A stretch of 44,189 nucleotides of DNA from Roseiflexus sp. Its GTDB lineage: Bacteria; Chloroflexota; Chloroflexia; Chloroflexales; Roseiflexaceae. Position 1 is the first letter of the stretch; the number at the start of each line of letters is the position of its first letter. The stretch is from contig JAGHYV010000037.1 of NCBI GenBank assembly GCA_017743475.1, positions 1 to 44,189 on the forward strand. The letters are read 5' to 3'. Shown here piece after piece: positions 14,047 to 20,989 of this stretch. Below the pieces are notes generated by a model that saw nothing but the letters and a program-made list of their open reading frames with translations, did no database searches and was not told the DNA's origin. The position numbers and the translations under genes are program-made.

Positions 14047-15243
14047 ATGAGTGACAGAGGTGTCAAAGCGCAGCGGAGCAAAACGGCATTGGTACTGGCA
14101 GGCGGCGGAGTAACAGGCGCAGCATACGAAATCGGTGCACTGCGCGCGCTCGATGATCTTCTCCATCACTTTAGCGTCAACGACTTCGATGTTTATATTG
14201 GCACCAGTGCCGGAGCGCTGGTCGCCGCTTGCCTGGCGAATGGTCTGACACCGCACGAACTGATGCGGCACCTTGAAGTGCCGCTCGATGGAATTGCACC
14301 GCTCGATACTGGCGACCTGTTCACCCTCAATGGGCGCGACATTCTGGCGCAGGGGATGCATCTGCCGCGGGCAATGCTGCGTGTGGTGCAGGCGCTTATC
14401 TTTTCACGAAAGCATCTCTCGCTGCTCGACCTGATCGAAGCGTTTGCGCTGGCGCTCCCTAGCGGACTGTACGATATCAGTTCGCTTGAGCGCTATCTCA
14501 GCGCTATGCTCTCCCGCCCCGGTCTGACCAATGATTTTCGCGCCCTCTCCCGCGAACTGGTCGTCATTGCGACCGATCTCGATACTGGTGCGCGCGTCGT
14601 GTTTGGCATGCCGCCGTATGACACGGTGCCGATTTCGCGCGCTGTGGCTGCGTCTTCGGCAATGCCGCTGGTCTACCGTCCGGTGCGGATCGACGGGCGC
14701 GATTACATCGATGGCGGAGTGCGCGGCAATGCCAGCCTTGATCTGGCGATCGAACGCGGGGCACGCCTGATTGTCTGCGTCAATCCGCTTGTACCCTATG
14801 ATTTAGATGAGGCGGATGATGAGAAATTGCACATTCGCGACATGGGAGCGCCCGGGATTGCCAATCAGGTCTTCCGCACCCTCTTCCACTCTGCGCTGCA
14901 TTATCACCTGAAACAGATCCACCGTCGGCATCCCGATGTTGATATTATTCTGATCGAACCGGCGCGCGACGACGTTCGTATGTTCTCCGAAATGCCGATG
15001 CGCTACTCTAGTCGCACCGAAGTCGCACGGCACGGGTTCGAGACAGTAGCGCGCTTCCTGAGCGAACGGTACGAGAGTTATCGGAATATCTTCGCACGAC
15101 ACGGTATTGCGCTTCAGCCGCAACAGGCTGCCCGACGCCTGACAGCCGTCGCACACCGCGTGAATACGCCACACCCCGGTCCGCGTGAACTGCGTCAGAC
15201 GCTCGCCAGGCTGGAGCAATTCCTGAATCAATCCAACCGCTAA
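14047..15243 (+). CDS. Patatin-like phospholipase
   Basis: 398 residues. The frame is open from 13933, but ATG 14047 has AGAGGA just upstream and places the conserved domain near the N-terminus. The patatin motifs are complete: LVLAGGGVTGAAYEIGAL (oxyanion loop), IGTSAGAL with the nucleophile Ser, and DGGVRGN with the catalytic Asp. The C-terminus (about residues 270-398) is helical. The family hydrolyses acyl esters of lipids, using a Ser-Asp dyad. No signal peptide or membrane anchor is visible, so it is probably cytosolic. It ends 4 bases into the convergent VWA gene. Confidence 0.9.
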   Translation: MSDRGVKAQRSKTALVLAGGGVTGAAYEIGALRALDDLLHHFSVNDFDVYIGTSAGALVAACLANGLTPHELMRHLEVPLDGIAPLDTGDLFTLNGRDILAQGMHLPRAMLRVVQALIFSRKHLSLLDLIEAFALALPSGLYDISSLERYLSAMLSRPGLTNDFRALSRELVVIATDLDTGARVVFGMPPYDTVPISRAVAASSAMPLVYRPVRIDGRDYIDGGVRGNASLDLAIERGARLIVCVNPLVPYDLDEADDEKLHIRDMGAPGIANQVFRTLFHSALHYHLKQIHRRHPDVDIILIEPARDDVRMFSEMPMRYSSRTEVARHGFETVARFLSERYESYRNIFARHGIALQPQQAARRLTAVAHRVNTPHPGPRELRQTLARLEQFLNQSNR

Positions 15244-16469
15244 GTTCCAACCCGCTGACGTCGCTCAGGGCGGCGCGCGCCAAGCATCGCCAGTTTTGCG
15301 CCGAGTTGCTCCAGGCTTACCAGGTTGTGCACCGGCAAAAAGTCATCGATGAACGGCAGCGCCGCCTGCATCCCCTGCGTGAGCGGTTGGTAGCGTGGAT
15401 TCCCTAGCAGCGGGTTCAACCAAATCAGACGATAGCACGAACGTTGCAGCCGCGCCATTTCGCGCCCTAGCAACTGCGGATCGCCGCGATCCCATCCGTC
15501 GCTGATGAGCAACACTACCGGACTTCGCCCCAGCACCCGGCGCGACCAGTAGTAGTTGAAGTGCCTGACCGCCTCGCCAATCCGTGTCCCGCCCGACCAG
15601 TCCACCACATGTTTGCTGACAGCTGCGATGGCTTCATCGATGTCGCGTTCACGCAACAGACGGGTAATGCGCGTCAGGCGCGTGCCGAACACGAACGCTT
15701 CAACATCACGCAAGCCGTTCGAGATGGTATGCACGAACTGGAGCAGGATACGACTGTAGCGATCCATCGAGCCGCTGATGTCACACAGCACGACGAGCGG
15801 ACGCTGCCGATAGCGCGGTTCGCGGAAGGTCAGCTCAATCGGGTCGCCGCCATAGCGCAGGTTGCGGCGCAGGATGCGGCGCATATCGATCTCGCCAGCG
15901 CGCACTGCCGGGCGACGACGACGGGTGCGACGTGGCTCAATACGCCAGTCAAGCGTGCGCAGCAACTCTTTGCATGCCTGCACCTCTTCATAACTGAAGC
16001 TGCCGAAGTCTTTGGTGCGCAACGTTTCAGCGGCCGTGAAGGTGAGCGTAAAGCCGACCTTCTCTTCCTGCTGTTCTTCGTAACGATCCGGCTCATTGTG
16101 TCCATCGTCCTGGCTGCGCGGTCGGCGCGGCAGACGCAGCGGTTTCGGCGGCGTTTTGACAACCGGGATCGCCAGCATCAACGGATCAAACCCCGACTGC
16201 GTGCGCCAGTAGAAATCGAATGCGGCATCGAATACTGGCAGGTCTTCGCGTCGGCAGATCAGAGTACAGCGTGCGGCTGCGCGAAAATCCCCGCGCGCCA
16301 CAATCGGCACGTGCTCCAGTGCCCGCACCAGATCGATTGTCTGCTCGCTGCTGACTTTGATGCCAGTGCTGCGCAGCAAGTGAACAAACGCAACCACATG
16401 CGTCATCAGGTTCCCATGGGGAATCAGTGGTTCTAACTCGTCCATAGCAGCAACGTGAATCCCTGTCAC
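15240..16469 (-). CDS. VWA-domain (CoxE-like) protein, MoxR partner
   Basis: 409 residues if it starts at GTG 16469; an ATG at 16445 (MDELEPLIPHGN) is an equally plausible start. The N-terminus (VVAFVHLLRSTGIKVSSEQTI) and middle are those of CoxE-like proteins. The C-terminal von Willebrand A domain keeps the metal site: VLCDISGSMDRY, WSGGTRIGEAV and LLISDGWDRGD. It lies directly after a MoxR ATPase gene (the GTG follows its TAG without gap). Such pairs act as AAA+ chaperones that load metals or remodel protein complexes. A second pair lies at 38601-40982. Confidence 0.9.
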   Translation of the reverse strand: MTGIHVAAMDELEPLIPHGNLMTHVVAFVHLLRSTGIKVSSEQTIDLVRALEHVPIVARGDFRAAARCTLICRREDLPVFDAAFDFYWRTQSGFDPLMLAIPVVKTPPKPLRLPRRPRSQDDGHNEPDRYEEQQEEKVGFTLTFTAAETLRTKDFGSFSYEEVQACKELLRTLDWRIEPRRTRRRRPAVRAGEIDMRRILRRNLRYGGDPIELTFREPRYRQRPLVVLCDISGSMDRYSRILLQFVHTISNGLRDVEAFVFGTRLTRITRLLRERDIDEAIAAVSKHVVDWSGGTRIGEAVRHFNYYWSRRVLGRSPVVLLISDGWDRGDPQLLGREMARLQRSCYRLIWLNPLLGNPRYQPLTQGMQAALPFIDDFLPVHNLVSLEQLGAKLAMLGARRPERRQRVGT

Positions 16470-17360
16470 CTACATGCCCACTTTCTCCAGCAATGAACGC
16501 ACCCCCTGCCCGCGCACCTGCGCGATATCGTCCTGATACTTCAGGATTGCACCCAGCGTATCCTCTACCATTTCAGGGGTGAGTTCACGTGCGTCGAGCG
16601 CCGTAAGCGCAGTCGCCCAGTCAAGGGTCTCTGCGACGCCAGGGAGTTTGAAGAGATCGAGTTTGCGCAACTCGTGAACGAATGCCACAACCTGGCGCGA
16701 CAGACGGTCAGACATGCCAGGAACTTTGGCATTCACGATTTGCAGTTCTTTATCGAGCGACGGATAATCGATCCAGTAAAACAGGCAACGCCGCTTCAGC
16801 GCATCATGGATTTCGCGCGTGCGGTTGCTGGTGATAATAACCGTCGGCGGCTGGCTAGCGCGAATGGTTCCGATTTCGGGAATGCTGATCTGCCAGTCGG
16901 AGAGAAGTTCGAGCAGGAATGCCTCGAACTCTTCATCAGCACGGTCAATCTCGTCGATCAACAGCACCGGCGGGCGTTCCCAACTTTCCTCAATCGCTTG
17001 CAGCAGCGGACGCTTGATCAGAAACTCAGGGCTGAAGATTTCACTGAGTGCCGCATGCGCATCGCTGCCGCCGAGTGCCTCGATCAGGCGGATCTGCAAC
17101 ATCTGTCGGGTGTAGTTCCACTCGTATATGGTCGTGTTGACGTCGAGACCTTCGTAGCATTGCAGGCGGATCAGGTGACGATCCTGCATGCGTGCCAGTG
17201 TTTTTGCAATTTCGGTCTTCCCAACCCCTGCCTCGCCTTCGAGCAGCAATGGCTTCTGCAACTTGAGCGCCAGAAAGATTGCCGTTGCCAGCGGGCGGTC
17301 TGCGATGTAGTTATGCGCGGCAAGCGCCTGCTGTAAATCGTCAATGGTTGCAAACTGCAT
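16470..17360 (-). CDS. MoxR-family AAA+ ATPase
   Basis: 296 residues from ATG 17360 (MQFATIDDLQQAL). The frame is open farther upstream, but that part crosses the divergent promoter region and is not protein-like. Walker A is LLLEGEAGVGKTEIAK and Walker B is VLLIDEIDRADEEFEAFL. The sensor 1 region reads VIITSNRTREIHDALKRRC, and YPSLDKELQIVNAK follows. MoxR ATPases work with VWA proteins to mature or remodel target complexes, and the VWA partner follows at once. The likely client is not obvious from neighbours. Confidence 0.93.
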   Translation of the reverse strand: MQFATIDDLQQALAAHNYIADRPLATAIFLALKLQKPLLLEGEAGVGKTEIAKTLARMQDRHLIRLQCYEGLDVNTTIYEWNYTRQMLQIRLIEALGGSDAHAALSEIFSPEFLIKRPLLQAIEESWERPPVLLIDEIDRADEEFEAFLLELLSDWQISIPEIGTIRASQPPTVIITSNRTREIHDALKRRCLFYWIDYPSLDKELQIVNAKVPGMSDRLSRQVVAFVHELRKLDLFKLPGVAETLDWATALTALDARELTPEMVEDTLGAILKYQDDIAQVRGQGVRSLLEKVGM

Positions 17361-17394
17361 AGGTGTTGATCCTGTCGGGCGGGTGTATAGAATT

Positions 17395-17423
17395 ATTGTA
17401 GCACAGGCAGTGTGTGCTATAAT
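17395..17423. promoter_or_regulatory. Divergent promoter with inverted -10 elements
   Basis: ATTGTAGCACA (17395-17405) and TGTGCTATAAT (17413-17423) form an inverted repeat with one mismatch around a 7-base spacer. The right arm is an extended -10 for the DUF4870 gene (plus), 40 bases before its start. The left arm read on the minus strand is TGTGCTACAAT, an extended -10 for the moxR gene. The two promoters probably compete, or the palindrome may bind a regulator. Confidence 0.55.
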
Positions 17424-17463
17424 CGCCAGTACAACGCATAAATGAACGATGATTGTGTGACTG

Positions 17464-18375
17464 ATGGCTCTACCCGATGAAGATGAGCGATTGACGGCAG
17501 CAATGGCGCACGCCAGCATCGTTGCCAATGTTGCAGGATTGACAGGTTTGATCCTGGCAGTTCTGCTCTGGGCGACTCAGCGCAGGCGGTCGCGCTTCGT
17601 GCGGGCGCATATTGTGCAGGTGCTTGTCTACCAGATTGGCACACTTCTGGGTGTTATTGCGCTAATGCTGTTGTGGTCTGGGTGTTTGCTGCTGTCGCTG
17701 CTGCCTGCTGCGTTGCGACCGGATCTCTACCGCGACGGCACCCTGCCAGACACGTTCTGGATTGCGTTGTTCGGGTTGATCCTGCCAATCGGGTACGGGT
17801 TTGCTGCCACGCTGTACGCCATTTATGGCGCGTATCGGGTCTATCGTGGCGAACACTTTACCTACCTGCTCGTCGGGCGACTGGTGCAGCGCGATTTGCA
17901 GGAGCCGCAGTCTCCGACACCAGCCTCAGTATCGTCTCTGGCAACTCCCGGACAATCGCTCCCTCTTCCTGAACGTCCAATCCTATCAACTGCTCGACTT
18001 CCTACTCAGGCAGAACGGGCGAAGCCGACACTCACTGATATGCCAGCATCTGTGGATCAGCATCCAGCCACGGCAGAACCACTATTGCGAACGGAAAGGG
18101 AAAGGGCAGCGGTGCCTTCGTCCGAACCAGCAGCATCGGTCAGCGGGACGGCATCACCTCCATCTGTTCCGTCGCCTTCTGACCAATCACCGATGCTCGC
18201 CGTGCCGGGTGGCGCGTCTCAGGAAAGCAGCGCAACCACTCTCTCGTCTACTGACGATACCACAGTTATGCCGCTCCAGGATGCACTCGATCAGGGCGCC
18301 CGTCCAGTCGTCAGCCCGCAACCCAACGAGATCACAGCAGAACGGCGTTCAGATCACCCACCCAATGAGCGGTAG
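17464..18375 (+). CDS. DUF4870-like membrane protein with a Ser/Pro-rich tail
   Basis: 303 residues. Residues 1-140 hold four membrane segments with the DUF4870 (Tic20-like) arrangement: DERLTAAMAHASIVANVAG, then SRFVRAHIVQVLVYQ, a long hydrophobic stretch and YGAYRVYRGEHFTYLLVG. Residues 155-303 are low-complexity (Pro, Ser, Thr, Ala, Gln), probably disordered and cytosolic. Function unknown. The 3' end overlaps the convergent gamma-carbonic-anhydrase-like gene by 22 bases. Confidence 0.75.
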   Translation: MALPDEDERLTAAMAHASIVANVAGLTGLILAVLLWATQRRRSRFVRAHIVQVLVYQIGTLLGVIALMLLWSGCLLLSLLPAALRPDLYRDGTLPDTFWIALFGLILPIGYGFAATLYAIYGAYRVYRGEHFTYLLVGRLVQRDLQEPQSPTPASVSSLATPGQSLPLPERPILSTARLPTQAERAKPTLTDMPASVDQHPATAEPLLRTERERAAVPSSEPAASVSGTASPPSVPSPSDQSPMLAVPGGASQESSATTLSSTDDTTVMPLQDALDQGARPVVSPQPNEITAERRSDHPPNER

Positions 18376-19071: not shown

Positions 19072-20632
19072 TCAGGCGTCCCAGACTGCTTCTTCATCGC
19101 CAGTCTCTGTCGGGCGCTGCGGAAGTCTGCCCGCTGCAAAGTCGTGGATGATAAGCGGAGCAAAGGCATCGAATCCAGCAATGTTAAGCGACCGGGTATC
19201 ATTGGGATCGGCAACGCTGTAGTGTGTGGCAGTCGTGGCCACGATGATCAGCGCCGCGTTGACGCCGACCGTGTTGCGATAGCGATCCAGCACAACATGC
19301 ACCGGCTCGCAATTCGCCCACGTCTCGTTATCGGTGATGATCACGACGGCGTCTGCTGGCACACGATTGTCTGTTGCCCACAGCAGCGGCTGGGAAATAT
19401 CCGTGCCCCCGCCTTCAAGTCTTTCGATGATACTCTGGATGTCGGTGAGACTCATTGATGGCGTGATGGGCAGATTGTCACACCTCGTATCGAACCAGAG
19501 CGCATGCCAGTGCGGTTCGGTGCGCGCGGTTACCATTGCCATCACGCCACCAATTTCGCGTGGCGTGATGCCGCCAAGCGATGCAGTCGCGGCACTGTCA
19601 TCGATCCGAACACATCCACTGCCAGCAGTATTCGGACGTTTGCTGGATCAACCAGCGGGAACGCCGCAGCGAACGCCTCATCGAGCGCCTGCTGGATGGC
19701 GGGAATGGGATCCCAGGTCTGCTTCGTCTTCCTGCTCTGCCCGGCCGCATAGGTGCGCGACGCGACCAGAATGTGGAATGGATGGATTCGGGCGCGGCGC
19801 AGATGCCCAGCATCGGTCAGGCGCTTTTCCACCAGGCGCGTGGCATCGTTGAGCGGCGCGAGCACGCCCAGGCGCGTCGGCGTCGCCAGATTACGCAGTA
19901 TCGCTCCCAGCGGCATATGCGGGAGCAATGCCGCCCAAACCTCAGCGTGCTGGAGGAAGCGGGTCGGGACAGCCTCGCGCGGCAGGCGCTCGTCGGTAAT
20001 CATCTGCGCTGCCAGGGACGCCTGAGACGAATCGAGGCTGCGCAGCCGCTCAAAGGCCCAGATTTTGCGCAGAACCGGATCGGGATGCGATTCCGGACTG
20101 ATACCGGGCCACCCGTGCGCGATCCAGTACAGCACCGCACTGCGTTGTGGGTCATCCGTGCGGGCATGACTCATGTGCAAGGCACGCCGCAGCGACCAGA
20201 ATCTGCGGCGCTGATACTTGATCGCGTGGTAGGCAAGGGTCGCCGCTGGCGCGGCGAGGAACCACTGCTGCACTGCGCGCCGCAGCGCGCGCCCCCATCC
20301 GCGCATCTGCACCGCGTAGTCAACCAGCGTGAGCAGGTGTGTTCCCGTGCGCGCGACGCACGGCGTCATCTCCACGGCATATGCCCTCGTAGCCTGGTTG
20401 CCAACCGCCAGCGTCAACGCCAGAACCATGAGCGCCGGGTTGTTCGATAGCGCGCGTCCCGACTGACTGACCTCAACCACGCGATCAATGACGCGCACGC
20501 CGTCTTCCTGGATCAGCGGCGTCAGACGGCATACCGCGTCGAGAGTCAGTGCAGTGCCGCTGGCGTAATACGTATTGTCGATAGTCCCCTGAATCAAATC
20601 GCGATTGCGGCACGGATAACGCGGTTGCTCAT
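19072..20632 (-). pseudogene. Ro60/Rsr-like TROVE-VWA gene, frameshifted
   Basis: Ro60 is a ring-shaped RNA-binding protein that holds Y RNA and misfolded RNAs. The TROVE part is clear (TYYASGTALTLD, EDGVRVIDRVVEVSQSGRAL, RTGTHLLTLVDYAVQMRGWGR, AAPAATLAYHAIKYQRRR). After LLAVDVFGSM the frame is lost at about 19597-19601. Adding one base in GATGAC restores DSAATASLGGITPREIGG and MAMVTARTEPHWHAL, the rest of the VWA domain (to 19072). The best start (ATG 20632, after GAGGAAGAGGAACGCCG) is out of frame with the TROVE frame, and the expected N-terminal VPNSAGGY-like block is missing. The MIDAS motif DxSxS reads DVFGS. Two lesions point to a pseudogene; sequencing error could explain at most the first. 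Confidence 0.8.
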
Positions 20633-20713
20633 CGGCGTTCCTCTTCCTCAAAGCCAGCGGCGCACCAGAATAATGCGCCGCTGCGGAGACCAAGAATAGC
20701 ATAACCAGTGCGT

Positions 20714-20826
20714 TGGAGGCAGGGTGGGGAGTCGAACCCTGGAGGGATGTCCCCCGTTCCATATGATAACCACCATCTATGGGGCGCGCTGATGCGGACA
20801 AGGTCGGCGACAGATACTACCCTGCC
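20714..20826 (-). ncRNA. Candidate Y RNA, tRNA-like module 2
   Basis: On the minus strand GGCAGGGT (20826-20819) pairs with ACCCTGCC (20725-20718), an 8-bp acceptor-like stem. TCCA follows, which looks like a discriminator base plus CCA. A T-arm with the loop TTCGACT and a GGG/CCC stem lies directly before the 3' strand, as in tRNA, but the total (113 nt) is too long for tRNA and no D-arm or anticodon arm is visible. Bacterial Y RNAs of the YrlA type are known to mimic tRNA and are encoded next to the Ro60 gene, as here. The motif GACCTTGTCC is shared with module 1. The module lies between module 1 and the Ro60 remnant. Confidence 0.6.
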
Positions 20827-20835
20827 CTGATAAAT

Positions 20836-20950
20836 GCACAGGTGGAGAATCTGAACCTCCCAACGCCGCGAGCAGTAACTGTCATCAATGGAGGCTGGCG
20901 TGGACAAGGTCAGCAGCGAATATGCGTTCGTTGCAACCAGCTACCTGTAC
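20836..20950 (-). ncRNA. Candidate Y RNA, tRNA-like module 1
   Basis: On the minus strand GTACAGGT (20950-20943) pairs with ACCTGTGC (20843-20836), 8 bp with one U-G pair. The T-arm GGAGG-TTCAGAT-TCTCC directly abuts the 3' strand. A hairpin at 20938-20908 has GCAACGAA/TTCGCTGC arms (one mismatch) closed by GGT/ACC. The shared block GCTGACCTTGTCC then follows. Length is 115 nt. The predicted transcription start of the promoter at 20961-20989 falls a few bases before the first stem. It is a paralogue of module 2 by order of elements and shared blocks. A Ro-binding stem with the conserved Y RNA bases could not be proven by eye. Confidence 0.6.
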
Positions 20951-20960
20951 GCACCGAAAC

Positions 20961-20989
20961 ATGGTATAAGGAACGTGATCGCTTGTCAA
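20961..20989 (-). promoter_or_regulatory. Promoter of the candidate Y RNA locus
   Basis: Minus strand TTGACA (20989-20984), 17 bases, TACCAT (20966-20961). The -35 is perfect and the -10 has four of six bases; TATACC with a 15-base spacer is an alternative. The start point would be about 20954, just before the first tRNA-like module. Confidence 0.6.

Follow-up and report, generated by a model that had tools for sequence, protein, structure and literature searches.

Two tandem modules upstream of a ro60 pseudogene

The window, as the term is used here, is the whole 44,189-nt stretch of Roseiflexus sp. DNA that was analysed (contig JAGHYV010000037.1), and the locus described below lies on its minus strand. 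In the direction of transcription, a promoter-like site, TTGACA-17-TACCAT (20961..20989), is followed by two modules, M1 (20950-20836) and M2 (20826-20714), by a GC-rich hairpin (20655..20683), and by a ro60 pseudogene with TROVE and vWA domains (19072..20632). The -10 element ends about 10 nt ahead of the 5' strand of the M1 acceptor. A reading of this DNA made without relatives (the sequence-only reading) had placed a promoter here, and it holds up: the site is the sole promoter-like one in 700 nt, with 0.3 expected, and the congener G068 keeps it as TTGACA-17-TATCAT, the -10 element ending 7 nt ahead of the acceptor. No promoter of sigma-70 consensus was found upstream of the other arrays checked. 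The hairpin between M2 and ro60, AGCGGCGC..GCGCCGCT, is without a U-tract; its stem is identical in the window and G068 (folding z of -3.07 and -2.72, respectively), and it is possibly a processing or leader element. A few genes downstream of ro60, also on the minus strand (15240-17528), a CoxE-type VWA protein and a MoxR-type AAA ATPase are encoded.

Both modules are as first described, with 8-bp closing stems, T-arms, a common block and, in M2, a TCCA end. In M1, GTACAGGT (20950-20943) pairs with ACCTGTGC (20843-20836) through 8 bp including one G-U, so that the acceptor (20950-20944/20842-20836) has 8 bp counting T8-A; its T-arm (20860-20844) has 5 bp, GGAGG/TCTCC, and a loop, TTCAGAT, that has mutated away from the consensus. 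In M2, GGCAGGGT (20826-20819) pairs with ACCCTGCC (20725-20718) through 8 bp, and just 3 bp of the T-arm adjoin the loop TTCGACT. Read as a tRNA, M2 has a 7-bp acceptor, GGCAGGG/CCCTGCC (20826-20820/20724-20718), then T73, then CCA at 20716-20714. The common block, GACCTTGTCC, is found at 20911-20902 in M1, where it is the presumed Ro60-binding strand, and at 20805-20796 in M2, which also has the Y strand CCCCATAGATGGTGGTTATC at about 20784-20765. A D-arm is absent from both modules, and the distal helix of the Y hairpin is broken in M1.

Taken by itself, the window gives weak evidence, since folding energies are unremarkable (z of -1.2 for M1 and -2.0 for M2, weak on their own) and neither Rfam nor ARAGORN has a match at the module stretch. 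The YrlA covariance model proposed as a check in the sequence-only reading (RF02553, gathering score 69) has no match in the window and gives 28-33 bits in relatives, and both window modules are below the tRNA cut-off of RF00005. The signal comes instead from relatives. R1, a covariance model built from ten Chloroflexales modules with the window left out of the seed, gave M2 19.3 bits (E 8e-6) and M1 11.7 bits (E 0.0019) over the 901 nt scanned, the next best match being 5.5 bits. These low scores and the missing D-arms count against reading the window modules as tRNA-shaped Y RNAs.

Decay of the locus within the genus

The reference for ro60 was the intact gene of G068, which spans contig C406 and JAUQOW010000029.1 (L054) with a 40-aa overlap that is 100% identical. 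Compared with it, the window gene has two frame-breaking deletions, one of 79 nt in the N-terminal part near 20606 and one of 1 nt near 19589, as well as a MIDAS motif changed from DVSGSM to DVFGSM with loss of the serine. The claim of an adjoining TROVE/Ro60 gene thus stands as far as both domains (TROVE and vWA_Ro60) are concerned, but they lie in two frames and not in one open frame, and what adjoins the modules is a pseudogene. Between the window and G068, ro60 has a pairwise dN/dS of 0.15 (312 codons), which points to damage that is either recent or in part an artefact of assembly, although sequencing can hardly account for a loss of 79 nt.

The orthologous module pair of G068 is 67-69% identical to that of the window. 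Its first module, the complete orthologue of M1 with D-arm and ACCA, has a perfect tRNA shape, GCACGGG-TA-GCTC..GAGC-insert-GGGGG-TTCGAAT-CCCCC-CCCGTGC-ACCA, and its second module, the orthologue of M2, likewise lacks the D-arm. Between M1 and G068, compensatory changes are found at acceptor pair 5 and T-stem pair 3 (A-T/G-C in each case). Folding energies did not discriminate here either, the G068 module having a z of -0.71 with its first four bases left out of the fold. In the closed genome of another congener, G065, ro60 and the promoter are gone and a 36-nt piece of M2 is left, with flanks that are 92% identical. A DNA similarity search across the order found only G068 and this G065 scar. 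The ro60/Y RNA locus is being lost in the genus, and the window has a decaying example of it, whose function in this genome is probably lost or nearly so. Elsewhere in the order, L090 (G035:C172:133500-143500) holds a second truncated ro60, with a frame of about 220 aa and no module found, which is another sign of repeated loss.

Intact relatives

In Chloroflexales with Ro60, the Rfam tRNA model matches elements of 107-149 nt upstream of ro60, covering acceptor, D-arm and T-arm, with a long insert at the anticodon loop. An intact module consists of a 7-bp acceptor, U8-A9, a D-arm, a T-arm whose loop is of the elbow type, and sometimes CCA, and a Y hairpin of 56-105 nt replaces the anticodon arm. 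Such elements pass the tRNA covariance score (42-54 bits), yet they do so without an anticodon arm of tRNA length. In most loci, at most a few hundred nt separate the modules from ro60 downstream of them. The modules form arrays of one to five; three to five occur in L061 and L065, and many loci have a single module. As arrays of this size are common, the tandem pair, which had been singled out as the unusual feature, is not what sets the locus apart. The closed acceptor-like fold and CCA-like end are borne out by the 7-bp acceptor, T73 and CCA of M2 and by the relatives: CCA is encoded at the right place in 13 out of 33 modules, compared with 6 of the 12 canonical tRNAs that were sampled.

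Within the order, R1 has twelve long matches at 84 bits or more, and 11 come from genomes that have Ro60. Ten of these matches simply recover the seed modules, and the one in G048 closely copies a seed. The one independent match is a perfect module in G003 (C61, L121 2198-2323), a genome with no detectable ro60, where the tRNA-shaped Y RNA may be an orphan that has outlived its protein or the gene may lie in an assembly gap. Outside the order and the seed, R1 finds long matches beside ro60 in other Chloroflexota (L082, L083 and L086), three tandem modules beside ro60 on plasmid pAQ7 of the cyanobacterium Picosynechococcus PCC 7002, and a long match beside ro60 in the viral contig L136. The three RNAs of PCC 7002 lie upstream of SYNPCC7002_RS15900, and GAACGGA..TCCGTTC-GCCA is one of their acceptors. 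Covariation within Picosynechococcus, at 98% identity, is uninformative. Searches with the Ro60 proteins of PCC 7002 and of G050 as queries found no viral relatives.

Several other RNAs were seen in loci of this kind. L083 (G196:C102:6500-11570) and L084 (G314:C44:33000-40000), both from Chloroflexota outside the order, have about 20 canonical tRNA genes upstream of ro60, and in L084 a Deinococcus-type Y RNA and a YrlA lie between the tRNA array and ro60. A canonical tRNA with a CAT anticodon is found inside or beside the Y RNA array of two related genomes (L064 2558-2633, minus strand; L068 1732-1804, plus strand). The nematode stem-bulge RNA model RF01656 matches short Y-like hairpins beside bacterial or viral ro60 genes or modules (L121 2127-2192, L133 2916-2979 and L136 2706-2772) with 32-45 bits, its cut-off being 38. 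L089 appears to have two short Y RNAs of the same kind with no tRNA domain.

The acceptor is formed within each module

A register test was applied in which, for each D-arm, the T-arm whose flanking strand pairs with its acceptor strand was sought. In classical loci (L084 of Chloroflexota, L129 of Nonomuraea, L132 of Sparky, L126 of Kenrey, L131 of Trina, L127 of Bosea and the viral L134, L135 and L137), the acceptor pairs with the T-arm just upstream through a loop of 2-8 nt. In the tRNA-shaped class its partner is the downstream T-arm, which follows the D-arm at a distance of 57-97 nt. A set of 33 modules, among which 27 acceptors are distinct, has 182 of 189 acceptor cells paired, against a mean of 115 and a maximum of 136 in 2000 shuffles. 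This count is lowered by one L065 module entered with a wrong start and, as a percentage, is inflated because the models by which most modules came to light favour the acceptor. In the same set 73 of 75 T-stem cells are paired. Pairing with the acceptor of a neighbouring module is mostly lower, and equal where neighbours have like acceptors. The closing stems thus covary across relatives and the modules are conserved beside Ro60 genes, two points whose absence would have told against the sequence-only reading.

Cleaner evidence than the paired percentage is given by this neighbour test and by a scan of viral contigs that was blind to acceptor and D-arm. The pattern TTGCCC-N3-8-GGGCCG-N30-60-GGTTCGA returned 58 stretches, and these yielded nine modules on six contigs with a D-arm of 4/4, an acceptor of 7/7 (6/7 in one) and the tRNA register. 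A ro60 gene lies on five of the six contigs within the fetched DNA, the sixth fetch covering only 5.4 kb. L187 and L194, two viral candidates with 6/7 acceptors, were not counted as modules, being without a tRNA-like D-arm. Applied genome-wide in the phylum, the same pattern gave 6 matches against 4 for its reversed control, which is near chance except in G196, so the pattern is informative only together with a structure check.

Relation to known Y RNAs

In bacteria, Ro60 usually partners with Y RNAs; the human form of the protein is targeted by autoantibodies in lupus. In YrlA and the Y RNA of D. radiodurans, a tRNA-like body is known for docking a partner (PNPase) or for gating Ro60.

The modules share with YrlA (RF02553, from Salmonella and others) a D-arm, a T-arm, an acceptor stem, a Y stem with an AcUuGucGcc-like motif, and a place next to Ro60. 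What differs is where the RNA ends. The YrlA consensus in Rfam runs from the 5' strand of the Y stem through the T-arm, the 3' strand of the acceptor, a short loop, the 5' strand of the acceptor and the D-arm to the 3' strand of the Y stem with AAcUuGucGcc. The modules run from the 5' strand of the acceptor through the D-arm, the ACCUUG(C/U)CC strand, a loop, the GGGCCGA..GGUUAC strand and the T-arm to the 3' strand of the acceptor. The two represent one cycle cut at different places: in YrlA, pairing of the two ends makes the Rsr-binding stem and a short loop closes the acceptor, whereas the modules have an open acceptor and a capped Y stem. It is the pairing of the acceptor that tells the two forms apart. 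A published description already treats YrlA (PDB 6CU1) as a circularly permuted tRNA (PMC11472068; YrlA is reviewed in PMC8394870). Known bacterial Y RNAs bind Rsr through the lower, basal stem (PMC4726728), which is formed by the two ends of the RNA (PMC8394870). No description of a Y RNA with an open acceptor was found in the literature searched, a search that did not extend to the main primary papers.

The stem motif assigned to Ro60 binding, ACCUUG(C/U)CC..GGGCCGA/CCCA..GGUUA(C/U)C, matches the YrlA and Deinococcus Y consensus by alignment only. Its first strand, of the ACCUUG(C/U)CC type, is GACCTTGTCC in M1 and M2, and its second strand corresponds to GGgCCgaAGuGGuCaCGGUUaC, with which the Deinococcus Y RNA model begins at its 5' end. 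The D. radiodurans Y RNA (RF01053) has GGGCCGA..GG..GGUUAC in common with the Y strand of the insert, but there this strand lies at the 5' end of the RNA, while in the modules it forms the 3' side of a hairpin inside the RNA. Modules of genus g29 and G050 have a more divergent Y hairpin, ACUUCCUCG..CGAGGUGAU, within an unchanged architecture. With canonical tRNA (RF00005) the modules share the acceptor, U8-A9, D-arm, T-arm and, in part, CCA, and they are set apart by the insert in place of the anticodon arm or loop. The earlier proposal of a double Y RNA locus beside Ro60 is therefore supported, as predicted homology, by the Y motif and the relatives. The notable point is the topology: the modules are circular permutations of YrlA in which the ends lie at the acceptor instead of the Ro60-binding stem. 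This permutation, the loss of the D-arms in the window and the state of ro60 had all been overlooked. The permuted form also causes Rfam and tRNA finders to miss or misname these RNAs.

Proposed nature of the modules: a tRNA body with a Y hairpin

We consider it very probable that M1 and M2 are what is left of an array of tRNA-shaped Y RNAs that was transcribed in the direction of ro60 and is now decaying, the intact units being a tRNA body with a Y hairpin for an anticodon arm or loop, that is, YrlA circularly permuted. For processing, binding and function we infer the following. One transcript would be cut into units by RNase P and RNase Z, and the free acceptor end of each unit may then receive CCA. 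Ro60 would hold the Y hairpin, and the tRNA body, by likeness to YrlA and the D. radiodurans Y RNA, might dock a partner such as PNPase or gate Ro60.

Three other readings were considered, each quite improbable. The units could be tandem classical YrlA RNAs that run from Y stem to Y stem, the acceptor being formed across neighbouring modules. True YrlA-form loci do occur in the same phylum (L084) and in phages, and the sub-threshold YrlA matches of Rfam straddle the module borders. However, this reading was rejected on the pairing of acceptors, which is 7/7 within modules, often in single-module loci that have no neighbour; in addition, promoter and first acceptor coincide in G068 and in the window, and the spacers between modules exceed the 2-8-nt loops of the YrlA form. 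Just as doubtful is that the modules and the following hairpin form a cis-acting leader that regulates ro60, for instance through Ro60 binding its own leader, with no separate RNAs released. The position of most modules shortly upstream of ro60 and the conserved hairpin after M2 would suit such a leader, but in three viral contigs (L143, L174 and L175) the modules lie downstream of ro60, the perfect module of G003 has no ro60 to regulate, and the known Y RNAs, to our knowledge, act in trans. Somewhat less probable still is that these are dead tRNA pseudogenes or tRNA genes whose insert is spliced out as an intron: the Rfam tRNA scores of the relatives, one G068 element that ARAGORN names tRNA-Phe, and the real tRNA genes adjoining some arrays point that way, yet the insert carries the Y motif and is too short for a group I intron, no anticodon is conserved, and the modules sit beside Ro60 across phyla and phages.

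Evolution of the two forms

In a tree of 39 Ro60 proteins, some long branches of which are unsure, the YrlA form and the tRNA form are interleaved. Counting only branches with good support, the tRNA form requires three changes or more; one sister pair, at 100/93, joins L138 of the YrlA form to L146 of the tRNA form. A tandem array would offer an easy route, as a change in which break becomes the ends would convert one form into the other. In the Rhodococcus phage Trina (L131 2143-2351), a 209-nt pseudo tRNA annotated directly upstream of the Ro gene is probably a Y RNA.

More tentatively, and with the chances rather against it than for it, tRNA-shaped Y RNAs might constitute a second, widespread bacterial and phage form that matures like tRNA and uses its free CCA end for CCA addition, charging, or docking of EF-Tu or a nuclease. 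Repeated switching between the two permutations, through a change in which of the breaks in a tandem array supplies the ends, would then be a natural case of recurrent circular permutation of an RNA. Switching of this kind, as placed on the Ro60 tree, would mean that evolution can move the ends of the RNA and still preserve its fold.

Why Y RNAs mimic tRNA is an open question in the field. An RNA that matches a whole tRNA in all but the anticodon arm and has a free acceptor end permits a direct test of whether Y RNAs are processed, CCA-tailed, modified or charged as tRNAs are, and also allows one to ask whether the free end feeds PNPase. The presence of this form in Picosynechococcus PCC 7002, which serves as a laboratory model, and in phage contigs gives systems in which such tests could be made.
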